Source: Candidatus Stahliibacteriota bacterium
GTDB taxonomy: Bacteria > Hydrothermota > Tepidihabitantia > SM23-42
Assembly (NCBI GenBank): GCA_030670605.1
Contig: DAOVBK010000012.1
Location: 1 to 13,619 of the forward strand
DNA: 13,619 nucleotides
Direction: 5' to 3'
In this document: in pieces, positions 2,337 to 13,512 of the stretch
Numbering within the stretch: the first letter of the stretch is position 1
Layout of the letters: the number at the start of each line of letters is the position of its first letter
Notes under the pieces: generated by a model
The model's database searches: none
What the model saw: only the letters and a program-made list of their open reading frames with translations
What the model was told of the DNA's origin: nothing
Translations under genes and position numbers: made by a program

Positions 2337-2500
2337 CCAATGACGAATAACCAACAAACAAAGGACATCAGGATACCAGATGACCAGGATGAAGAATATC
2401 AGGAAACCAGGCTATCAGGAAAAACCTTGCCCAGTCAGTTCCGGGGCTCTGTCTGATACTCTGATGTTCTGTCTACCCGATAACCTGATATGCTGATACC
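2326..2500. repeat. Periodic array with inverted arms between mtnA and the barrel gene
   Basis: From 2326 the sequence runs in 7-bp units (atgacaa, atgacca, atgacga, ataacca). It then turns to 8-bp units of ATCAGG/ACCAGG type (2396-2403, 2404-2411, 2412-2419). After a spacer it continues as six in-phase 8-bp units of CTGATA type (2453-2500: for example ctgatact, ctgatgtt, ctgatatg, ctgatacc). The last block is the reverse complement in word content of the ATCAGG block, so the region is a loose large palindrome. It holds the stop codon of mtnA and the start codon of the next gene. No promoter was recognised in it. Confidence 0.65.
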
Positions 2501-3752
2501 CTTACTCTTTCTCCTCGCCTACGACTCCCTCCCTCCTCTTCCTGACCTCTCTCAGGTCATGTTTCCAGAACCACCTTTATGGATACGGGAACAGGAAAAT
2601 CATGTCATGTTCAATGGCTTTGCAGGGGATTTCTACGGCGGATCAGGTGATGTGGACATCCAGAATTTTCATTTTGATGCGCAGTATGCACGCACGGTTG
2701 ACTGGGATTCAACAGAATCAGGAAGCGCCGCACTTTCGTATGCACTTCCATTGTCACACCTGATGCTGCATCCGCAGTTGACGGGTCACTACGTACACCG
2801 TGATCAAGAGTATGCGCGTCTTACACCACAACTCGCATTATCATCAACACTACCATGGGCAATACTCCTCGCCGATATGCGTGCTGATTTCTGGCTGATC
2901 GATGACGTATCGTCCCGAGAGGGACTGTTCAATGCGGAGATGATATTCGATAAAGTGAACTACCTACCTCATGTTGATTTTACGCTTCTCGCCACTGAGA
3001 AACGATATAGACCAGCACTTGCTGCCAAAATCCATGTTCGCCACTTCCATCTTGCTCTCGGTTCACCGCTCGATGAGGATTTCTTTTCGCCGGAGTTGAC
3101 AATACAATACCGGGAACCGAAAATTCGAATCGAGACAATGTTCAGGTCCGGTGTTGTTTACCGATCTTTGAGCGCGTATTATGACCCAACCACGCCTGTT
3201 CGCTATACCGTACCAGTCCCTGACGAAAGCCTTACGCTTGGTGCACATATGACCGCAACGCTTGACCTATACGACCACCTGATCTCTTTCTCCAGCTCAT
3301 ATGAGAACTGGAATGCCCACCTCGTACCTGCGGACAATTTTGTGCTGCGGCACATGAGAGATGTTCAAAAGGTACGCCTGTATGCTATGTTCAAGAATAC
3401 CTTTTCAACAAAACGTGTAGAACTGCAGAATAGATTCCATATATGTTACACGTGGGCAGACTCGATAATCCCGCTCTTGGGAACGTACACAATACGTGAT
3501 ACATTCGACTGTGCCATCCGGCCTGTTCAATTCTCTTACGAATTCCAGTATGTGAGTGAACAAACCGGTGTAACAGGACAAAAACTCCCAGCAGTATTGC
3601 TTCTCAATTCACAAATCGGTGTCCGGTATGCATTCACCACATTTTTCGTTTCAGTCCATAACCTTACCGATGAAAAAAAACAGATGTACGATGGCTACTA
3701 CCTTGCTGGCCGTCAGTATGCAGGAGGCATTGAACTACACTTCGTTTTTTAG
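2490..3752 (+). CDS. Putative outer-membrane beta-barrel protein, TonB-receptor-like C-terminus
   Basis: This 420-aa protein is rich in aromatic and alternating polar/hydrophobic stretches typical of transmembrane beta-strands. Its end (residues about 392-420) reads NLTDEKKQMYDGYYLAGRQY and then GGIELHFVF, the usual last strands of TonB-dependent receptors with a terminal Phe for Bam recognition. There is no visible plug domain or TonB box, so it is either a barrel-only relative or a fast-evolving receptor. The N-terminus MLIPLLFLLAYDS is a short hydrophobic segment without a positive charge, a weak signal peptide. The ATG at 2490 is preceded at 2481 by an in-frame stop, so no upstream ATG is possible. 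No Shine-Dalgarno is visible, and the start codon lies inside the 8-bp array. Substrate unknown. It converges on the IMPase gene with 5 bp between stops and no evident terminator hairpin. Confidence 0.75.
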   Translation: MLIPLLFLLAYDSLPPLPDLSQVMFPEPPLWIREQENHVMFNGFAGDFYGGSGDVDIQNFHFDAQYARTVDWDSTESGSAALSYALPLSHLMLHPQLTGHYVHRDQEYARLTPQLALSSTLPWAILLADMRADFWLIDDVSSREGLFNAEMIFDKVNYLPHVDFTLLATEKRYRPALAAKIHVRHFHLALGSPLDEDFFSPELTIQYREPKIRIETMFRSGVVYRSLSAYYDPTTPVRYTVPVPDESLTLGAHMTATLDLYDHLISFSSSYENWNAHLVPADNFVLRHMRDVQKVRLYAMFKNTFSTKRVELQNRFHICYTWADSIIPLLGTYTIRDTFDCAIRPVQFSYEFQYVSEQTGVTGQKLPAVLLLNSQIGVRYAFTTFFVSVHNLTDEKKQMYDGYYLAGRQYAGGIELHFVF

Positions 3753-4573: not shown

Positions 4574-5590
4574 TTATCCTCCAGTCAACGAAACGAGTGT
4601 ATCTGGTATCTCGACCAAAGGCAAAACATGATCAACCACACCGGTATTTATTGCTGCCTGTGGCATTCCTGCAATCACTGCATCTGCGGGGTCCTGTGCA
4701 ACAACCATACCCTTAGCCTTCTTGATTCTCGTAATACCGCGTGATGCGTCGCGCCCCATGCCGGTTAGTACAACGGCAACTGCTTTTTCGTGGTACGCGG
4801 ATGCCATCGAATCGAAGAGGATGTCTGCTGATGGCTTCACACCGTGCACGGGTGGTTCATCAGTGACAATAACCCGTGAGCCTGTTGCATCAATACGCGT
4901 ATGAAAACCACCAGGCGCAATGAGTACCTCACCATCGAAAATTGTATCCTGATCCTTTGCTTCCTTTACAACCATGCTTGAGCGTTCATTGAGATGCTGA
5001 GCAAGGCTCGCGGTAAAATACGGAGGCATGTGCTGGACAACCAGTATTCGCATACCACACTGTGCCGGGAGCGATGGTATGATGTAGTTTAGCGCACGCA
5101 CGCCACCGGTCGAAGCGGCAATACCAACGTACAGGTTGCGGTAGTGCGCCGGTGCCCGCACGATCTTCTTTTCTCTCTGTGCAGGCAATCTCGCCTGTAC
5201 AGCAACACGTAGTTTTTCAAGAAGCTCGTCACGGTAATGAACGAGATCGAGTGAAATCGGTCCCTTTGGTTTCGTAAAGAAATCCACGGCACCCATTTCG
5301 AGTGAACGCATCGTTAATGCAGCACCTTCCTTTGTGTGCGCCGAGACCATCACGACCGGTATCGGCTGTGTCTTCATGATTTTCTCGAGGAGGACAAGCC
5401 CGTTCTCTTTTGGTAATTCATAATCGAGTGTAACAATGTCGGGCTTTAATTTGTTGAACTTAGCCCACCCCTCGACAACATCACGGGCAAAGCCGCAAAC
5501 TGCAAAGTGCCGAGATGATCCGATGATATCATCGAGCACACGCTGCATGAGGATTGAATCCTCAACAATGAGCACTTTTTTCTTCATCAT
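4574..5590 (-). CDS. cheB: Chemotaxis response regulator protein-glutamate methylesterase CheB
   Basis: CheB removes methyl groups from, and deamidates, chemoreceptor glutamates/glutamines as the feedback arm of adaptation, activated by CheA-dependent phosphorylation. The 338-aa protein has the standard layout. An N-terminal receiver (about 1-120) carries acidic E10/D11, phosphoacceptor D56, S83 and K107. A linker follows, then the methylesterase domain (about 150-335) with the triad Ser160 (AASTGG), His187 (VQHMP) and Asp281 (LTGMGRD). Motif SADILFDSM (254-262) is also typical. All key residues are present, so it should be active. It starts 13 nt after cheD with tandem ATGs and no visible Shine-Dalgarno, which suggests reinitiation from cheD. 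The partner kinase CheA must be encoded elsewhere. Confidence 0.95.
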   Translation of the reverse strand: MMKKKVLIVEDSILMQRVLDDIIGSSRHFAVCGFARDVVEGWAKFNKLKPDIVTLDYELPKENGLVLLEKIMKTQPIPVVMVSAHTKEGAALTMRSLEMGAVDFFTKPKGPISLDLVHYRDELLEKLRVAVQARLPAQREKKIVRAPAHYRNLYVGIAASTGGVRALNYIIPSLPAQCGMRILVVQHMPPYFTASLAQHLNERSSMVVKEAKDQDTIFDGEVLIAPGGFHTRIDATGSRVIVTDEPPVHGVKPSADILFDSMASAYHEKAVAVVLTGMGRDASRGITRIKKAKGMVVAQDPADAVIAGMPQAAINTGVVDHVLPLVEIPDTLVSLTGG

Positions 5591-5603: not shown

Positions 5604-6071
5604 TTACAGTATTTTCTCACCGTGTCGAAAGGACGTTACTCTAACTTCGCCGCTCTGTATATCGAAAAAAATCGACCTGCCCCAGTTCCCAAACACATCT
5701 TCTGTGACAATTGGTATATTGAAGTTCTCAAGCACCTTCCGTGCCTGGACGACATTCCTGTACCCTATTGCATGTCGTTCAAATTCCTCAAACATCTTTG
5801 AACCACCAATGACCTTTGCTGTTATGTGTTCTGTCCGTGCACCCATGGTAACCATTCTTTCAACCACGGTAGTTATTGCACCACGCGGCGTTTTAAGGCT
5901 ACCAGTATCATCATCTGGAAGCAGGCAGTGCGCGAGTCCGCCAATGTGTTTCTCCATATCATGAAGCACGACAACGACACACGAACCAACACCATACGCA
6001 GCAAGTACATCATCACCACCCTCCACCTTAATCTCGCCAATCGCGACGCGCTTCTCCTTCATGTCGTTCAC
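5604..6071 (-). CDS. cheD: Chemoreceptor glutamine deamidase CheD
   Basis: CheD deamidates receptor glutamines and in some bacteria binds the phosphatase CheC. The 155-aa sequence has GVGSCVVVVLHD (27-38) with nucleophile Cys31 and GGLAHCLLP (44-52) with His48. The 17-residue spacing is the same as Cys27-His44 in Thermotoga CheD. GGSKMF and a C-terminal EDVFGNWGRSIFFD replace the usual GGAxMF and DVGGxxGR. The position of the third catalytic residue (Thr21 in Thermotoga) appears to be Ala25. I take the GTG at 6071 as start: it overlaps the cheR stop as GTGA and has AGGAAAG about 7 nt upstream. An ATG three codons in (6062) is the alternative. CheC is not in the window. Confidence 0.92.
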   Translation of the reverse strand: MNDMKEKRVAIGEIKVEGGDDVLAAYGVGSCVVVVLHDMEKHIGGLAHCLLPDDDTGSLKTPRGAITTVVERMVTMGARTEHITAKVIGGSKMFEEFERHAIGYRNVVQARKVLENFNIPIVTEDVFGNWGRSIFFDIQSGEVRVTSFRHGEKIL

Positions 6072-6856
6072 TCGTTCACTTTCCTGTAGATGTGCTCGGC
6101 GCGACTGACGGCTTCAAACAATTTCACCTCAGGAATACCAATGAGGAGCTCAACTTTGCCGATAATGAGATAACCAGACGTTTTCAGCTGTTTGTAGAAG
6201 TTTCTGATGACTGCCGACTGTGCACGACGGTTCAGGTAGATGAGCACATTACGGCACATTATGAGATCGCACAACCCGAATGACGCCTTTTCTAATAAAT
6301 CGATGTGTAAAAAGTGAACTCGCGCACGAATGTCATCATTGATTCGATAACCTTCTTTTGTTTTCGTAAAGTATTTTTGTACTACTCTGTCCGGCGTGTA
6401 CTGAAAAGATGAAGCAGAATACATACCCTTTTGTGCCTGGTTAACCGTACCCTGATCAATGTCCGTACCATAAATGGTTACTCGATTGAGCAGTGAGCAT
6501 TCTGCCGCTGAAATTGCCAGGGAGTATGGCTCTTCACCATTTGCACAACCAGCACTCCATAAAACAAGCGATTCATTTTTCTTCCTGAACTCGACAAACT
6601 GATGCTGCTGCAAAAATGCAAATGTCTCTGGGTTCCTGAAGAAAAAAGAAAGGTTGATCGTCAAAATGTCCAATAACCGATCGACTTCTTGTGGATCGCG
6701 TTTGAGATGTTCCAAGTATGCAGAGAAATCCGCTAACCCGAGTGCACGCATACGTACACGGAGACGTCGCTTGAGCGGTTTTTCTTTGTATGATTGACAT
6801 TTGAAAGCAGTTTTTGCTTCTATGTGGTGAATGAGATTGTAGAAACTATTCTCCAC
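6068..6856 (-). CDS. cheR: Chemoreceptor glutamate methyltransferase CheR
   Basis: This SAM-dependent methyltransferase adds methyl esters to chemoreceptor glutamates and opposes CheB. The 262-aa protein has an N-terminal helical domain (about 1-75) ending in LTINLSFFFRNPETF (65-79, with the conserved Arg74), the SAM-binding WSAGCANGEEPYS (100-112), YGTDID (129-134, acidic residue for SAM ribose) and a DLIMCRNVLIYL-type post-motif near 196-207. The usual LGHSE near the C-terminus reads IGKVELL. The start is a GTG inside the last codons of the DUF4388-TPR gene (11-bp overlap), and the stop overlaps the cheD start. Together with cheD and cheB this is a complete adaptation set, normally expected to be near cheA/cheW and a receptor, none of which is present here. 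Confidence 0.95.
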   Translation of the reverse strand: MENSFYNLIHHIEAKTAFKCQSYKEKPLKRRLRVRMRALGLADFSAYLEHLKRDPQEVDRLLDILTINLSFFFRNPETFAFLQQHQFVEFRKKNESLVLWSAGCANGEEPYSLAISAAECSLLNRVTIYGTDIDQGTVNQAQKGMYSASSFQYTPDRVVQKYFTKTKEGYRINDDIRARVHFLHIDLLEKASFGLCDLIMCRNVLIYLNRRAQSAVIRNFYKQLKTSGYLIIGKVELLIGIPEVKLFEAVSRAEHIYRKVNE

Positions 6857-8435
6857 CCGATCTTCGTAGTACGTCTATGTTTTGTGTAATAGTTTCTTCT
6901 GAAGGATTTAGTGCTTTCGCTTTGTTCCAAAGATCGAGCGCCCTCTCAGAATTTCCCTGGCGTAGATAGATAGTACCAAGATTGAGAAATATTTGCCAAT
7001 CACGTCTATCTTCAGGGATTTTCTCATATAATTCTTTTGCTGCCCCGAGAATCTCTGCCTCGTAGTAGAAATCAGCGAGATTCCGTGCTATGATTTCATC
7101 ACGGGGGTTTGCGTCAACGGCCTGCCGGTACAGCTTTTCTGCTTCCTCGGGCTTACCAAGTGCTTGATACAACACCGCCAGATTGTTCTTGAAGAGCGTG
7201 AAGCGAGGGAATCTATCAATGGCACATGACAGTACTTCTGCGGCATGCTCAACATCATCCTGTTGCACATAGATGTATGGCAGATATATGTACGGCGTCA
7301 TTGCTTCTGGTGATGCCTTGACTATCTCCTCAAACATCTTGGCAGCTTCAGCAAGCGCACCCTTTTCATTGTATACCTTCCCGAGGTTACATCGCACCTT
7401 TATGCTGTCAGGCACAAGATTTTGTGCAGCATGCAAATGCTCAATTGCTTCATCAAATGATTTGAGCTTCATGCACACGTATCCCAGGTTCACGAGTATT
7501 GATGCACGTTTTTCGTATTGCACTGACTTCCGTAGATATTCACGAGCAGCTTCATAGTCGCGGCGAACCACGGCAATGAGTCCCAAGTAGAATAATGCTT
7601 CCGCATCCTCGGCTTTGATCGCAAGCGCCTTGTTATACTCGCGCTCTGCTTCATCGTACATTTCTGTTTTGTAGAACGCAAATCCAAGATTCTTGTACTC
7701 GAAGATGTCGCCGGTTGGTTGCTTCACTTCAGCCGGTCTTTCAGGTTTCTCCAGTAACCCCGCGGACAAAAGCCCGTAAATCGCCCTGTTGGTAACAAAA
7801 AAATCGTACGCAGAAAGTTTGAGAACATCATCGATATTTCGTGAACCATCAATGAGATCAAAAACTTTCTTCTCCTCCTCGGTCAATGAAACATCTCCGA
7901 CCTCACCTTTCCTGACAAGAATAGTCTCAAACGGAGGAACCTTATCCTCGATTTTTTTCCATTCATCAATCCTGCGCGCTCCTTCGAGGAGCAGTTCCTG
8001 CGCTGAGAGTTGTACCGTATATTCTTCTTTTGACGGCAAGAGGTCCGCTTCGAAATTGAAAAACCCGCTATCCCATGTAAGCATAGTGAAAATAACCTGC
8101 TCAATCTGATTCTTGAGTTCTTTTTCGAGTGTTTCCCGGTCAAGTGCACCCATCTCAATGAGAATCTCACCAATTCTCTTCTTCTTTTCGGACTTCTGTT
8201 TGAGCAGCGCCTGCTCGAGCGCTGATTGGTCAACAATCTTTTTCTGAATCAGAACGTCACCAAGCCGCTGTTCTTTGTTGATGATAGTCGCATACACTAT
8301 TTTGCCTTCTTTGATGAAAACGTTGCCGAAGTTCTGCGCATCAGTAACGGACAGACAACCAGACTTACCAGAATACGCAAGAAGCTGAATGACATCAGCA
8401 AGCGCTGCTTCTGTTAACGATCCTTTTATCGCCAT
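6846..8435 (-). CDS. DUF4388 (PatA-like) / MshEN-like / TPR protein
   Basis: This 529-aa probably cytoplasmic scaffold has four parts. Residues 1-55 match the start of the DUF4388/PatA N-terminal domain (KGSLTEAALADVIQLLAYSG, then a G-K-I-V-Y-A turn). Residues 57-110 hold two copies of an R-[LI]-G-[DE]-[VI]-L-I helical repeat (57-80 and 87-110) like the N-terminal domain of GspE/MshE ATPases. The DUF4388 fold resumes to about 170, then a winged-helix-like segment runs about 184-230 (LTEEEKKVFDLIDG on). Eight TPR units fill about 244-525. The product has no enzyme motif. A role in protein-protein signalling is inferred from the domains and from position directly upstream of, and overlapping, cheR. 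The ATG at 8435 has a GAGG Shine-Dalgarno 5 nt upstream. No convincing promoter was found in the preceding 211-bp array. Confidence 0.85.
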   Translation of the reverse strand: MAIKGSLTEAALADVIQLLAYSGKSGCLSVTDAQNFGNVFIKEGKIVYATIINKEQRLGDVLIQKKIVDQSALEQALLKQKSEKKKRIGEILIEMGALDRETLEKELKNQIEQVIFTMLTWDSGFFNFEADLLPSKEEYTVQLSAQELLLEGARRIDEWKKIEDKVPPFETILVRKGEVGDVSLTEEEKKVFDLIDGSRNIDDVLKLSAYDFFVTNRAIYGLLSAGLLEKPERPAEVKQPTGDIFEYKNLGFAFYKTEMYDEAEREYNKALAIKAEDAEALFYLGLIAVVRRDYEAAREYLRKSVQYEKRASILVNLGYVCMKLKSFDEAIEHLHAAQNLVPDSIKVRCNLGKVYNEKGALAEAAKMFEEIVKASPEAMTPYIYLPYIYVQQDDVEHAAEVLSCAIDRFPRFTLFKNNLAVLYQALGKPEEAEKLYRQAVDANPRDEIIARNLADFYYEAEILGAAKELYEKIPEDRRDWQIFLNLGTIYLRQGNSERALDLWNKAKALNPSEETITQNIDVLRRSGGE

Positions 8436-8646: not shown

Positions 8647-10611
8647 TCAATAATTCTCCTCAATCATCTCTCCTGGAATTTCCCGGGACAGGAACCGGTG
8701 CATATCAATTTTCTCTTTCTGCGGCTCGGGTTCTCGCTTCGTCTCGGTCACCTGCTCTGGTTGTTCTGTTGTTTCCGCTTTCTCTTTCTCTGTTTCGATT
8801 GATTCCTCACCGGGCAATCCGAGCGCGATAACCTCATCTCTGTGCTCCTTCACATCATCTGCAACGGGTTCTTTTTCCTCTTGTTGCTCCTCACCAGGGA
8901 GGCCCAGAGAAACAAGGTCACCCTCCTGCACACGCGTCGCAGACTCCTTGTCAGGTATCGTGAAGGTAATCTCTTCTTCCTTTTCTTCCTCGGTTGATCC
9001 TAAGAACGTATCAATGTCATAGAATGAAGAAAACAAGGGCAGTCCCCTATTGATAATACGCTCTGCCTGCGACGCAGGAACTCTCGATTGGATGTATCGC
9101 TTCGCCATCTCAGCGGTCGGCGGTTTCAATTCAGTCTCAATACCGCACTCAAAAACACTCTTCTCATCGTCAGACATCGACACATCCGTCGGGAACGTCT
9201 TAGAACTGTAGAACACCGGCTTTCCTGACCGAACGTCCTGCAAAACAGTGTCAAATATCTTCTTCCTCAGTTCTCGAGCAACACAAAACATGTTATGGAA
9301 ATTGTCGAGCAGCAAAACATCATATTGTCCCGCATCAGCGAGTTTAACGATGTCATCCACATCCGCAAGATTGAGAAACACTACCGACGTCCCGCGCGAT
9401 GAGAATTCGCTCTCAACTGCTTCTAAGAACCGTGTTTTCCCCGTGCCTTGCTTTCCGTATATGATGAACGGATTGTATTTCTGACCGAGGTTCGGCAGAA
9501 CGTGTTGCTCATAGATGTCAAACACATTCTTGTTACTCTCACCAATGATATACGTCTTGAAGGACTTATCTACTTCTTCAACCACCCCGTGCTTTATCAC
9601 CGCAATGAGTTCTTCTATTTCTTCCACTCGGTCTGGGGAGAACAACATTGATTCGATTTTCATCGCCTCCTCGGGATACCGACGGGTATCAAGGGCTCCA
9701 AATTCCCGCTGGAGCGCGATCAGTCTTTCCACCTTTTTGATGAAATCATCGTATTCATGCTTCAACAGTTCAACATCACCGTCAAGCAATGACCGTAGTG
9801 ATGACGTATCAAAACCTTTCATCTCCCAAACATATATTTTCTCTCTGTATTCCTCATGTACATCAACTTTTGCAGAAAGATCTTGTAGAACCTCACTCGC
9901 ATTCTTCTTCAATTCCTCAAGCAATGATGAAACAGGACTGTATATCCCCTTTGGATAGAACTCCTTGAGAATCATACGGACGCTATCGATGTCAAGCGTT
10001 ACACTAGCAAGGGACGAGTATGCAACGAGACGGTTAATCATTCCCTCGATCGCACGGATCGAAGCAGTTGAAATCTGCGCCAGTTCAAGCGCTATTTCAT
10101 CAGGTAGGATGATACCCGCTTCACCAGATTTCTTCTTGATCATCTCAACAAGCGCCATTTCCTTTGGTGGTACAATGTCGCATACAAGTCCGCCTTCGAG
10201 TCGCGACAAGAGACGTGGGTCTATGTTTTGCAGCTGACGAGGAGCAACATTTCCTGAAAAACAAATCTGTTTGTTATTAGCAAGCAGTGTGTCAATAATA
10301 CCGAGTATCGACTCATGATACTGATGTGCTATCGTATGGAGGTCATCAACGAAAAGCGCCGTGTCGACAACTTTTGTTTCATCAAGATATTTCTCAAATT
10401 CCTTCGTTGAAAAAAAACGTGCCGGATGCTTTTCTTTGATTGCTTGGCTAAGCGCCCACAACAGATGTGTCTTACCCAATCCTGTGCCGCTATGAATATA
10501 TAGTGGGTTAAAAAGTTCGCCAGGCAATTCTACAATTTTTTGTGCGGCAAGGTACGCTACTTTATTACCTTCATACATGTAGAAATTCTCGAAACTCAGT
10601 TCACGCTTCAT
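8647..10611 (-). CDS. Tandem DnaA-like AAA+ ATPase without DNA-binding domain
   Basis: This 654-aa protein has two AAA+ modules related to DnaA domain III. Module 1 (about 5-215) is complete: SFENF (6-10), FNPLYIHSGTGLGKTHLL (34-51, Walker A), LFVDDLH (86-92, Walker B), SRLEGGLVCDI (136-146, box VII Arg137) and sensor II SIRAIEGMINRL (184-195). A helical linker (about 225-345) has a W...KGFD...L...L pattern. Module 2 (about 350-535) restarts with SFKTYIIGESN, YNPFIIYGKQGTGKTRFL (379-396) and LLLDNFH (433-439). It has Asn437 for the second Walker B acid and SVFECGIETELKPP (485-498), where the box VII Arg is Val486. A Glu/Lys-rich tail (541-654) repeats LGLPGEE (569-575, 597-603). There is no DnaA domain IV, so it is not the replication initiator; Hda- or scaffold-like regulation is inferred. 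It starts 3 nt after the Roadblock gene stop. Confidence 0.85.
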   Translation of the reverse strand: MKRELSFENFYMYEGNKVAYLAAQKIVELPGELFNPLYIHSGTGLGKTHLLWALSQAIKEKHPARFFSTKEFEKYLDETKVVDTALFVDDLHTIAHQYHESILGIIDTLLANNKQICFSGNVAPRQLQNIDPRLLSRLEGGLVCDIVPPKEMALVEMIKKKSGEAGIILPDEIALELAQISTASIRAIEGMINRLVAYSSLASVTLDIDSVRMILKEFYPKGIYSPVSSLLEELKKNASEVLQDLSAKVDVHEEYREKIYVWEMKGFDTSSLRSLLDGDVELLKHEYDDFIKKVERLIALQREFGALDTRRYPEEAMKIESMLFSPDRVEEIEELIAVIKHGVVEEVDKSFKTYIIGESNKNVFDIYEQHVLPNLGQKYNPFIIYGKQGTGKTRFLEAVESEFSSRGTSVVFLNLADVDDIVKLADAGQYDVLLLDNFHNMFCVARELRKKIFDTVLQDVRSGKPVFYSSKTFPTDVSMSDDEKSVFECGIETELKPPTAEMAKRYIQSRVPASQAERIINRGLPLFSSFYDIDTFLGSTEEEKEEEITFTIPDKESATRVQEGDLVSLGLPGEEQQEEKEPVADDVKEHRDEVIALGLPGEESIETEKEKAETTEQPEQVTETKREPEPQKEKIDMHRFLSREIPGEMIEENY

Positions 10612-10614
10612 AAT

Positions 10615-11016
10615 CTAGCCACGCAGTATTTTCTCTGCCTGTACAGAAAATTCTTGACCAGCGACTTTCACAACACCGGGGAGTGTTCTGTCGTCGAACA
10701 ACGAAACGAGGAGGAACTGTTTGCTGACGCCAATATAATGTATGCTGAAATTCCTACCTTCCTGGAGAAATTGATAGAACGTATGCTCGCCCACTATGCT
10801 CGCGAGCTCCATCGTGGAATTGAACACACCGCACGCCAGTGCAGAGATCGCAACGACATCAAACGAGTAGACAAAACCTCTTTGGATAAGAACTTGTCCT
10901 GTGACAGTGACAAAAATCGACCATACAGTATGGGTTTGCGTGCAAAATTCACTCAAAAGGTGCTCAAGTCTATTGACTTTTTCTTTAGAGACACTTATTG
11001 TCTTCGTGCCATCCAT
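10615..11016 (-). CDS. Roadblock/LC7 domain protein (MglB-like)
   Basis: This 133-aa protein has the Roadblock/LC7 pattern: a helix (about 11-27), strand SIFVTVTGQVLIQRG (33-47), helix DVVAISALACGVFNSTMELA (53-72), then FSIHYIGVSKQFLLVSLFDD as the closing strands. Bacterial Roadblock proteins such as MglB form dimers that act on Ras-like GTPases (MglA) or on receptors and scaffolds. No MglA-type GTPase is in the window, so its partner may be the adjacent ATPase or lie elsewhere. It is the first gene behind a strong promoter. Its ATG is 9 nt after the -10 box, so the mRNA should have a leader of only about 3 nt and no Shine-Dalgarno. It ends 3 nt before the DnaA-like gene, so the pair is an operon core. 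Confidence 0.8.
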   Translation of the reverse strand: MDGTKTISVSKEKVNRLEHLLSEFCTQTHTVWSIFVTVTGQVLIQRGFVYSFDVVAISALACGVFNSTMELASIVGEHTFYQFLQEGRNFSIHYIGVSKQFLLVSLFDDRTLPGVVKVAGQEFSVQAEKILRG

Positions 11017-11025
11017 AGTTTAGTG

Positions 11026-11054
11026 ATTATAATCGATGTTTCCTATAAAGTCAA
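11026..11054 (-). promoter_or_regulatory. Consensus-like sigma-70 promoter of the signalling operon
   Basis: On the minus strand TTGACT (11054-11049) is followed after exactly 17 bp by a perfect TATAAT (11031-11026), inside the palindrome gattataatc (11025-11034). The Roadblock ATG is at 11016, leaving nine bases between -10 and start codon. The predicted +1 is then about 3 nt before the ATG. This is one base short of a perfect sigma-70 promoter. Confidence 0.75.
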
Positions 11055-11125
11055 TACCTAATCCGCCAAAATCGTGGTTATTTTCGTGATTCGTAGGTCG
11101 TACTACTGGTACACGGAGGACGCAG

Positions 11126-11180
11126 AAATCGGGGTCAGGTCTCAACCCTTCGACACACTCAGGACAGGCATTTGACATTT
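11126..11180. repeat. Composite repeat: transposase-associated-type word with a second repeat nested inside
   Basis: The flanks aaatcggggtcaggtctcaa (11126-11145) and atttgacattt (11170-11180) resemble, from memory, a repeat found next to REP-associated tyrosine transposases (GGGGTCAGGTCT ... TTTGACATTT). Between them is cccttcgacacactcaggac followed by aggc (11146-11169), a member of another common bacterial intergenic repeat family, whose reverse complement partly matches 168-190. No transposase gene is in the window. The identity is recollection, not a database match. Confidence 0.4.
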
Positions 11181-11382
11181 CTCTACTTCTCGACTCGCTC
11201 TCTCAATCCCTCGAGACAGGTACGCTTGCTCGAAGAGTAATGCCGTACTCGTGAATCGTAGGTCGTATTCGTGAAAACGCAGATCGCAGGAGGCAAAACG
11301 CGAATTCACGCAAATCAACTAATATTGTTCGAGTGAGCACCATGTGCGAATCGAGAACCAATACTAAGGAACTTCTCGACTC

Positions 11383-11405
11383 ATCCGCCATACAGCGTGG
11401 CGGAT
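11383..11405. repeat. 8-bp stem hairpin
   Basis: ATCCGCCA (11383-11390) and TGGCGGAT (11398-11405) are perfect inverted copies around a 7-nt loop. There is no following T-run on either strand, so it is not a typical intrinsic terminator, though it lies 72 bp downstream of the RecJ-like stop codon and could still mark that transcript's 3' end. It may equally be one more dispersed palindromic repeat. Confidence 0.45.
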
Positions 11406-11476
11406 TCGCTCGAAGAATAATCTCGTATTGGGGATTCGATAACAAAAGGTTCGGCCCAGCAGATAGAAAACCGCCG

Positions 11477-12973
11477 CTATCCCTTCTCTATGATACGAAG
11501 GTCATTATCTACAGTATACCTTCGCTCACCATCAGTGAGCAACGGTGGCGGGTTGCCTTCGCCAAACGGAACGAGTATCTGCAACATACGGATATCTGTT
11601 CTGGTCAATTGTGCTTCTGGCTGACTGGATACACCGTGCGGGTCTATTAGTTCATCGCTCCGTGTTGCGACATATTCTACAACACGCTGCACCACACGAT
11701 CAAGATTTTCCTGGACCATGGTGCATCCTGCTGCCCGGGGGTGACCGCCAAAATCAAGAAAAAACGCACGAAAACTGTGGAGCATGTTGTATAAATGAAT
11801 GCTATTACTCCTGAACTCACCAAAGCACTTGCCATCCTTGATGCCGATTACTGCAGATGTCCGGTGGTAACGATCTCGAAGACGCGCGGCAATCGACCCA
11901 AGATAATGCTGCTTGGAGAATGGAATAACCGAAATCACTATCTCCGGATAAACCTTGGCAGCGGCAATTGCATCTTCAAAGTGCAGTGCGACTTCACGCC
12001 TTCGTTCTTTTGTGGTTACGGTGAGGCGTGCAATCGTATCGGCAATGAACTGCTCGTCTTTGCGCATCAGTAGTTGCACACCAAGGTTTGGGTCATCGTA
12101 TGCAGCGGAAGCAATAATCGGGATAATGGCACTACTCACATTGCCGAACGAGAATTCTCGTTCGTGGCGAAAATGTTTTACCCAACCGTCATTTGTTCTA
12201 TTGAACACACGCAACCCCTCAATGCAGAATGTACGGTTCTCGCCGCGTAGCGCAACCCTGTCAGAGATGGTCCCGACCATGACAAGCGGGAAGAATTCTT
12301 TCTTGAGATTGTAGAACTCCTCCGCGGTCAGCTTGAAGACGTTCTGGTACAATGATTGGGCAAGTTTGAAACTGACACCAACACCAGCTAATTCCCGGAA
12401 TGGATAAAGTGAATCCGGTCGTTTCGGGTCAACAGCAGGTACCGGAAAATCTGCTTCGATTGTTTCGTGATGGTCACAAACGACAAAATTGAGCCCAACA
12501 TCCTTCACAATACGAAAATTATCGTCACTGCTGATGCCAAAGTCAACGGTGATAACGTGCTTCACCCCTTTCTGTTTATACTCCTGTAGGACTTCCCCAT
12601 TCATGATGTAACCGTCTTTTTCACGGATGATGGGGTACACAAAAACTGACTGCTTATCTGTCCGGTAGAGATCGCTCAGGGTTTTGTACATGATGACTGC
12701 GGACGTGTAACCATCAGTGTCATCATGTGTGTATATCAATATCGGTTCTTTCTTGTGCAGCGCCTCTGCAATCGTTTGTGTCGCAACCTGTATATCAGGA
12801 AGCAATTGCGGGTCGTGCAGCTGACCGACGCCAGGGAAAAGATATGCTTTTGCATCCTCGTATTGTGGATACCGGTGCGCGACGATCTGGGCGATCTCAT
12901 GTGGTACAGAAAAATCAGATGCATACTTCTGTACGAGGAGTGCGCTGCTATTTCTATTGTGCGTCTGTTCCAT
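11477..12973 (-). CDS. DHH-family single-strand exonuclease, RecJ-like
   Basis: RecJ is a Mn2+-dependent 5'-3' ssDNA exonuclease acting in recombination and mismatch/base excision repair. Counting from the ATG at 12973 (498 aa), the DHH domain shows HDDTDG (83-88), TVDFG (142-146, D144), CDHHE (166-170) and GTISDR (234-239, D238). The DHHA1 part carries LGSIAARLRDRY and GGHPRAAG (409-416). The end has PFGEGNPPP (469-477), which opens the RecJ OB-fold, but the protein stops about 21 residues later, shorter than usual RecJ (about 560-580 aa). The start is uncertain: ATG at 12973 overlaps the upstream gene by 20 bp; ATG at 13000 and TTG at 13015 are in-frame alternatives. Conserved-looking sequence begins at SALLVQKYASDFSVP. 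A RecJ-like nuclease of different cellular role cannot be excluded. Confidence 0.85.
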   Translation of the reverse strand: MEQTHNRNSSALLVQKYASDFSVPHEIAQIVAHRYPQYEDAKAYLFPGVGQLHDPQLLPDIQVATQTIAEALHKKEPILIYTHDDTDGYTSAVIMYKTLSDLYRTDKQSVFVYPIIREKDGYIMNGEVLQEYKQKGVKHVITVDFGISSDDNFRIVKDVGLNFVVCDHHETIEADFPVPAVDPKRPDSLYPFRELAGVGVSFKLAQSLYQNVFKLTAEEFYNLKKEFFPLVMVGTISDRVALRGENRTFCIEGLRVFNRTNDGWVKHFRHEREFSFGNVSSAIIPIIASAAYDDPNLGVQLLMRKDEQFIADTIARLTVTTKERRREVALHFEDAIAAAKVYPEIVISVIPFSKQHYLGSIAARLRDRYHRTSAVIGIKDGKCFGEFRSNSIHLYNMLHSFRAFFLDFGGHPRAAGCTMVQENLDRVVQRVVEYVATRSDELIDPHGVSSQPEAQLTRTDIRMLQILVPFGEGNPPPLLTDGERRYTVDNDLRIIEKG

Positions 12974-13394
12974 TCTTCTTGGCAGTCTCACGTGTTCCAT
13001 CCTGTCGGTTCGCAATGTGCTGCTTAACGTGTTCGACTATTTCGATTCGTTCACGAGGCACAAGCACAAAGACACCACGGAATTGGTTGAGGAACGTCTT
13101 GCGACTGAATGGACTAAGCAATATGCCATTCTTTCCCTCATAAACCATGCGAAACTCGTTGAGCATCCGACCTTGCGAACCAAAAAACTTTGTTACAATG
13201 ATCTCGGTGTCAGTAATCTCATAGTGCGTAGGAAAATAGTATGAATGCAGCGAAACAAAAAGTATGATAAATCCGATGACCGCAAACACAATGCCGAAAA
13301 AAATAGATACATAGGTGAGAAACGCGAAAATGAAAATGAGACTCACTATTGTTTTTGCCATATTTTCTCGTGCAGGATGAACTGACCACTTCAT
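12954..13394 (-). CDS. Two-TM membrane protein with PH-like domain
   Basis: From the ATG at 13394 the product has 146 aa: KWSVHPARE at the N-terminus, two adjacent hydrophobic segments (about 13-33 and 34-50), then YYFPTHYEITDTEIIVTKFF, where the FPTxYExT turn resembles the start of bacterial PH-like (YdbT/YdbS-like) domains. NGILLSPFSRKTFLNQFRGV follows. The C-terminus is polar. Function is unknown; proteins of this kind are common small membrane proteins next to unrelated genes. An in-frame TTG at 13433 would add 13 residues, but that stretch consists of AT-rich repeat-like words, so the ATG is preferred (TTGGAG lies about 11 nt upstream, a loose Shine-Dalgarno). It overlaps the RecJ-like gene, suggesting cotranscription. 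Confidence 0.65.
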   Translation of the reverse strand: MKWSVHPARENMAKTIVSLIFIFAFLTYVSIFFGIVFAVIGFIILFVSLHSYYFPTHYEITDTEIIVTKFFGSQGRMLNEFRMVYEGKNGILLSPFSRKTFLNQFRGVFVLVPRERIEIVEHVKQHIANRQDGTRETAKKNGTDAQ

Positions 13395-13420
13395 ATTATC
13401 AATAAGCTCCAAATAGCGAG

Positions 13421-13512
13421 CACCAAATTCCAAACAATATTGAAATTACAATTTCGAAGCCAAATCCTGCTGATTTGAATACTTTGGTCATTGGTAATTG
13501 TTTGGAACTTGA
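13421..13512. repeat. AT-rich word repeat with inverted arms
   Basis: aaattccaaacaata (13425-13439) pairs as an inverted repeat with aattgtttggaactt (13496-13510), 13 of 15 positions. Between them are related words (tttgaata, ctttggtc, attggtaa at 13474-13497) in an 8-bp rhythm and a perfect hyphenated palindrome gaaatt-ac-aatttc (13442-13455). These CCAAAT/TTTGG words resemble, from memory, intergenic words common in several uncultivated bacterial phyla. The block runs into the 3' end of the gene on the right. Confidence 0.5.

Follow-up and report, generated by a model that had tools for sequence, protein, structure and literature searches.

Hda, a relative of the replication initiator DnaA, consists of one module and carries an N-terminal clamp-binding motif, and to our knowledge every known DnaA relative without domain IV has a single module. 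Among the literature matches listed, we found no description of tandem DnaA-type proteins. In Myxococcus, according to part of the text of PMC7668184, the TPR protein SgmX is bound by MglA-GTP and activates type IV pili, and a section of PMC4316618 places PATAN genes near some MglA genes. The term DnaA is absent from the main text of PMC4316618 and of PMC11580455, a term search of PMC2577667 gave no match, and among the matches listed in the literature at large (titles and beginnings of abstracts, with few subscription papers covered) none connects any DnaA-like protein with MglA, MglB, DUF4388 or operons of chemosensory genes. Here we describe a tandem DnaA-type ATPase, encoded in a 13,619-nucleotide stretch of DNA from a WOR-3 genome (hereafter the window), which probably serves signalling rather than replication because it has no DNA-binding part and is surrounded by genes of the motility-steering kind. 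It is probably a signalling switch or scaffold, and we favour, with moderate confidence, the reading that it acts within an MglA/MglB-chemosensory system that steers type IV pili, as a switch or scaffold dependent on ATP. A DnaA-type tandem ATPase that regularly belongs to an MglA-chemosensory operon did not turn up among the literature matches listed and is apparently new; the component parts are of known kinds.

The ATPase gene (8647..10611, stop codon included, minus strand, as are all of its parts given below) is an open reading frame with an ATG start that encodes 654 residues and was supported by homologue search and structure modelling. The initial annotation had proposed two DnaA domain III-like modules in this one chain, which was borne out by Pfam searches on each module and by the structure model. 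Module 1 (residues 1-220; 9952..10611) is matched best by Bac_DnaA (Pfam) over residues 2-145 and by TIGR00362 (NCBIfam) over residues 2-219, and when the full chain is searched, Bac_DnaA ranks first in Pfam through module 1 (135.2 bits). Exactly where they had been predicted lie Walker A GTGLGKT (residues 42-48, with K47; 10468..10488), the Walker B acids D89 and D90 (10342..10347; also placed by alignment), the box VII arginine Arg137 (10201..10203) and the sensor II arginine Arg186 (10054..10056), the two arginines being supported by relatives as well; together these make up the DnaA ATPase motif set. Module 2 (residues 346-547; 8971..9576), a degenerate DnaA domain III by Pfam and by fold, opens with GESN (residues 357-360) and has Walker A GKQGTGKT (residues 386-393, with K392; 9433..9456). 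It carries Asn at the second Walker B acid (D436 N437; 9301..9306; DN in 19/19 rows of one alignment) and, as aligned, Val486 at the position of the box VII (finger) arginine (9154..9156), and in all four features the earlier description was exact. When excised (residues 346-551), module 2 matched Bac_DnaA with 48.1 bits (E 1.9e-12, cut-off 23) over profile positions 5-161 of 162, against 22.5 bits for the runner-up family; another P-loop family was considered for this segment and rejected, DnaA being the best match in Pfam and among PDB folds. Modelled alone (19 rows), module 2 again had DnaA domain III as its closest PDB fold. The full-length model, built from a 114-row alignment, contains two AAA+ modules, a helical linker (residues ∼250-340) and a disordered tail from residue 548, with a pLDDT of 79-98 per ten-residue block in module 1 and a pTM of 0.46, at which the placing of the domains relative to each other is not confident. 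The double module is retained in 16 aligned relatives at 36-59% identity, so the two-module layout is not due to chance, and comparison of module 1 with module 2 within the WOR-3 clade gave E 4.5e-20.

The linker (residues 221-345; 9577..9951), helical from about residue 250 in the model, lies outside the Pfam families (best E 0.24 when residues 225-345 were scanned). Its motif YREKIYVWEMKGF (residues 255-267; 9811..9849) includes W262 and G266, each kept in 51/52 of the WOR-3 proteins whose motifs we compared (four proteins from the latest-found genomes were left out). A linker-region search from P0115, a distant tandem relative, returned five proteins, P0115 itself included. A TetR-family PDB match at residues 239-300, obtained in a whole-protein search (E 0.0016), was taken as chance. 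The tail (residues 548-654; 8650..8970) is predicted to be disordered (pLDDT <50 for residues 548-552 and 554-654), carries two copies of LGLPGEE (residues 569-575, 8887..8907; residues 597-603, 8803..8823), both found by degenerate pattern search, and ends in a peptide that is conserved in alignments by eye (residues 639-654; 8650..8697). A degenerate DNA pattern for [LF]G[LF]PGE[DE], run on 27 genomes together with a backward control, gave 22 matches, 19 within the ATPase gene and three outside (one each in G010, G030 and G031), and the control gave one. In the genome of the window (G000; 1.75 Mb, 294 contigs, 79% complete) the pattern has two sites, both in the ATPase tail, so the motif is not common to other proteins of this genome. 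Domain IV had been called absent from the outset, and this stands: the best TIGR00362 stretch ends at profile position 339 of 437 (207.7 bits, cut-off 343.9), the full-length model contains no helix-turn-helix, and a domain IV in the tail, almost all of which has a pLDDT <50, was rejected. At the other end, the TIGR00362 match starts at residue 2, corresponding to profile position 105, and the N-terminal domain I is absent.

The genes around the ATPase, again on the minus strand, point to motility control. An MglB-like roadblock protein of 133 residues (10615..11016) is encoded just upstream, its stop lying 3 bases before the ATPase ATG; it matches the profile NF052242 at E 5.3e-9, below the cut-off, and the roadblock family profile matches MglB in PDB (E 5.7e-22). 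Downstream lie genes for a 529-residue protein with DUF4388 (PATAN) and TPR (6846..8435; Pfam DUF4388 E 3.4e-35) and, by Pfam, for CheR (6068..6856), CheD (5604..6071) and CheB (4574..5590), giving the order MglB-like, ATPase, DUF4388-TPR, CheR, CheD, CheB, inositol-phosphatase-family gene. Six-frame inspection of 11017-11476, between the MglB-like and DHH genes, revealed neither MglA nor a remnant of it; unlike at the window locus, MglA sits in the cluster in ten same-family relatives, and the MglA of G000 is a paralogue (63% identity) on a separate contig, C89.

Several further features of the window were recorded. Residues 57-110 of the DUF4388-TPR protein match NF053729, an MshE-related cyclic-di-GMP-binding domain (43.4 bits, cut-off 38), Pfam gives DUF4388 alone for its N-terminal 180 residues, and a c-di-GMP input through this protein is possible judging from the profile match. 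A promoter-like TTGACT-17-TATAAT (11/12) occupies 11026-11054 on the minus strand, just 5' of the MglB-like start; between 8300 and 11600 there are 9 such sites, with 4.9 expected. A DHH/DHHA1 (RecJ-like) protein (11477-13015) and a 159-residue protein with no Pfam match above cut-off (12954-13433) are found 5' of the cluster in several near relatives too, and the gene for a 420-residue protein with no Pfam match at E 1 (2490-3752) adjoins, in near relatives, genes that we call MtnA-like and FolD-like. tRNA and Rfam scans of the window gave no matches.

Akin to the window, relatives keep the ATPase in a fixed setting, which we compared at 53 loci, one from each of 52 genomes and, from G005, a second, masked copy. 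The DUF4388-TPR gene lies directly downstream of the ATPase in 50 of them, the three exceptions being two contig ends and the masked G005 copy, and Che genes follow downstream in 40/53. MglB is adjacent upstream in 30/53 loci; in 26/53, MglA is one of the first three recognised genes on the upstream side, no more than 600 bases off. One or both are upstream in 47/53 (both in 9), and neither in the remaining six, in two of which the contig stops 5 and 826 bases away. MglA is beside the ATPase in four further genomes beyond this set, too. The common order in distant families is MglA, ATPase, DUF4388-TPR, CheR, CheD, CheB and a second DUF4388-TPR-like protein, with PilT preceding MglA and, in some, a biotin carboxylase (by eye) between the two. 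MglA of locus L031 matches MglA in PDB at E 4.9e-68. Another AAA protein, with AAA_22 as its best Pfam match in L129 (11891-12703), is encoded after the second DUF4388-type gene there and at like positions in L130, L132, L133 and L119, all from distant families, and G028:C2:208597-211535 contains four consecutive MglA-like copies, of which one is broken by an internal stop. Homologue search and neighbour mapping have yielded two-module relatives with MglA/MglB, DUF4388-TPR and Che neighbours, and the suggestion in the initial annotation that the protein works in signalling rather than replication is well supported by these neighbours and by the presence of a separate DnaA in the genome.

The tandem ATPase gene was found in 56/147 WOR-3 genomes, in 13 families: 39 from homologue search, and 13 and then 4 from fetched regions; some of the other 91 genomes may carry divergent copies. 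The homologue search had hit 41 genomes, from which G052 and G132 were dropped as ordinary DnaA by length and context. The 13 came from 18 fetched regions, the others being one repeat of G076 and four without the gene (G087, G082, G077 and G085); as these 13 genomes had been picked for MglA close to CheB, only the presence of the ATPase between MglA and CheB is informative in them. Seven more regions contained ATPase genes in four, from four additional genomes. A scan for related loci returned 25, of which 20 are near relatives labelled Candidatus Stahlbacteria, candidate division WOR-3 or, in one case, TA06, and five are DnaA-like loci of Lachnospiraceae and Dehalococcoidia. MglA (E 1e-20) occurs in 55/56 genomes with the ATPase versus 41/91 without (Fisher p 9e-13), and CheB in 44/56 versus 9/91 (p 1e-17), both tests ignoring ancestry and counting related, incomplete genomes. 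The sole ATPase genome without an MglA match, G017, is 76% complete. The chemosensory set of G000 comprises matches to CheR, CheB, CheD, MCP and CheW, and the genome also carries a PilT homologue.

The chemosensory array is not essential to this association, as seven genomes of genus g6 keep the ATPase, MglB and DUF4388-TPR and have no CheB, nor MCP or CheW in the four searched. Module 1 of these proteins lacks the box VII and sensor II arginines in 7/7, and module 2 is missing in two of the seven. This pattern, confined to one genus, would be consistent with the ATPase cycle taking part in chemosensory signalling but is opposed (i) by G004 (79% complete; no CheB, MCP or CheW match) and G009 (89% complete; no CheB or MCP match and one partial CheW), which keep the module 1 finger and sensor II arginines, and (ii) by G027 and family f16, in which CheB is present and module 1 has no finger arginine. 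Chemosensory control also enters a tentative reading, possible in our view but short of probable, by which the DnaA-type AAA+ protein would be an ATP-driven assembly factor of the Ras-like MglA/MglB polarity switch, building and breaking polar clusters as DnaA does at oriC, with the live and dead modules setting the direction of assembly.

How the two modules vary among the 52 WOR-3 proteins bears on whether ATP matters at all. The Walker A pattern is intact in module 1 of 45/52 and in module 2 of 36 of the 44 proteins that have one; two of the seven module 1 misses deviate solely at the first pattern residue, and module 2 has lost the motif in four g2 proteins (Lys to Arg) and in four of family f21. 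At least one Walker A is intact in every one of the 52 and none lacks both, from which nucleotide binding is probably important. The pair itself is not required, since 8/52 have no module 2. The active/inactive switch within one chain, as originally proposed, holds insofar as one module is often degenerate, but which one varies by lineage: in family f11 (five proteins) module 1 is without Walker A and module 2 retains it, and in family f16 module 1 has EN or DN versus DD in module 2. Similarly, the degeneracy noted at N437 and V486 is correct for the window protein, but on the sequences compared these residues are lineage features. N437 occurs in 24/25 two-module proteins of families f1-f3 (the exception, G010, has DD) and the finger arginine in 0/44 WOR-3 module 2 sequences, as aligned, whereas module 2 of the distant tandem relatives P0115, P0116, P0117, P0120, P0173 and P0202 has both DD and the finger arginine in 6/6. 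The module 1 finger arginine is missing in 3/6 of these relatives. The DD and finger arginine of the distant relatives, together with the lineage-specific losses, indicate that the ancestor probably had two working modules, different parts of which were lost in different lineages; a module tree of 46 rows (2 of 13 DnaA rows were dropped because the pattern missed the domain start), in which the module 2 branches are long, leaves the order of duplication unsettled. The linker motif outlasts the ATPase motifs and the modules are decayed or gone in several lineages, as would suit a mainly passive scaffold that uses its linker and tail to hold MglA/MglB and the DUF4388-TPR protein, with the ATPase modules as structural leftovers; the retention of at least one Walker A throughout speaks against this, and we consider it unlikely.

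A separate DnaA, a 448-residue open frame with domain III and, by eye, a domain IV signature, is encoded on contig C270 of G000, making the tandem ATPase a paralogue; in the module tree the 11 DnaA rows from WOR-3 genomes group apart as a clade (support 100/97). The tandem ATPase scores 114.4 bits against TIGR03420 (Hda), whose cut-off is 194.8. That Hda is among the closest folds after DnaA in PDB structure comparison, and that none of the DnaA ATPase motifs checked is missing from module 1 of the window protein, would be expected if the protein regulated replication in the manner of Hda or by titrating DnaA, with module 1 contacting DnaA through AAA+ surfaces and coupling polarity to the replication cycle. 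We regard such a regulator as improbable, however, for the genes recognised around it belong to motility and chemosensory systems, the ATPase features of module 1 have decayed in other families, and few residues precede the AAA+ domain, where no Hda-type clamp motif was seen by eye.

Kinship with DnaA has nevertheless left an annotation trap, now exposed, in that a tandem protein can pass the DnaA equivalog cut-off. P0117, which like the other distant tandem relatives is 22-27% identical to the window protein, scores 481.4 bits against the NCBI cut-off of 343.9, in two stretches, the best of which stops at profile position 342 of 437; tandem genes can thus be named dnaA automatically, and proteins of the P0117 type are likely misnamed in this way. 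Many of the 120 P0117 homologues listed are annotated along the lines of 'chromosomal replication initiator protein DnaA'. Five carry an organism label, in each case Gemmatimonadota; one of these is called ATP-binding protein and the other four DnaA or DnaA/Hda. Tandem forms are already present in sequence databases under DnaA-like names. Two plasmid searches for tandem relatives matched 54 and 34 records, none with one place covering 80% of the query, and the matches listed (best 8 of 54 and best 6 of 34) were annotated as dnaA or as nothing.

By coordinates, a PilT homologue is encoded no further than 3 kb from the ATPase in 20/56 genomes (G061, G062, G063, G064, G065, G066, G067, G069, G075, G076 and G121-G130), that of locus L118 matching TIGR01420 with 481 bits (cut-off 319). 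This proximity and weak DnaC/IstB matches would be compatible with a chaperone of the helicase-loader or IstB-like kind, loading not DnaB but another ring ATPase, perhaps PilT or PilB, but the DnaA matches are clearly stronger than those to DnaC/IstB and no loader-type N-terminal domain appears among the best 25 of 26 Pfam families, making a loader very improbable. Finally, the idea that the tandem form is a paralogue in decay, retained in the operon by chance, as the degenerate module 2 of the window protein and its loss from eight of the 52 relatives might hint, was already unlikely and is scarcely credible in view of the open frames, the motifs conserved in 13 families and the fixed gene order.

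We therefore return to the ATP-dependent switch or scaffold of an MglA/MglB-chemosensory system, for which the following steps can be envisaged. A DnaA domain III module would have been duplicated in tandem around a new helical linker, and the tandem module, parted from DNA binding, would have been recruited into an MglA/MglB-type polarity module through which the chemosensory array would be connected with type IV pili. The module with the complete motif set (module 1 here) would bind ATP, its finger and sensor II arginines would allow state switching or assembly, and the degenerate module may serve as an unchanging partner or a regulator. Docking would take place mainly at the linker (W262, KGF), and the tail motifs and C-terminal peptide may bind a partner, most likely the neighbouring DUF4388-TPR protein. 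The ATP state would set the hold on MglB/MglA and on the TPR effector, and with it the place or time of pilus activity. Gene order and co-occurrence support the pathway, and we infer the biochemical step, including ATP-driven assembly, the partners and the effect on pili. By analogy with Myxococcus MglA-SgmX, the DUF4388-TPR protein is the likely effector, and the ATPase would be an extra switch or scaffold placed between the chemosensory input and MglA/MglB. If true, this reading would put the DnaA ATPase core to use outside DNA and add a new core part to MglA-type motility control in an uncultured phylum (56/147 genomes searched), and it supplies named partners in MglA, MglB and the DUF4388-TPR protein.

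Compared with DnaA, the tandem ATPase shares fold and family in both modules, and Walker A and B, box VII and sensor II in module 1, but it has two modules per chain, a new linker and tail, and no domain IV. It resembles Hda in having DnaA domain III without domain IV, and differs from it in being a module pair in a motility-type operon. P0117 and its relatives come nearer, with two DnaA modules, a similar linker of the form W..(E/K)G(Y/F) and kinship in the C-terminal peptide, and are set apart by a module 2 that keeps DD and the finger arginine in all six (two of them labelled Gemmatimonadota). At the level of the operon, the likeness is to the MglA/MglB-SgmX-FrzS and Frz systems of Myxococcus, which likewise combine MglA, MglB, a TPR protein, Che proteins and the pilus machinery; SgmX, as portrayed in part of its published description, consists of TPRs only, whereas the WOR-3 protein has PATAN plus TPR.
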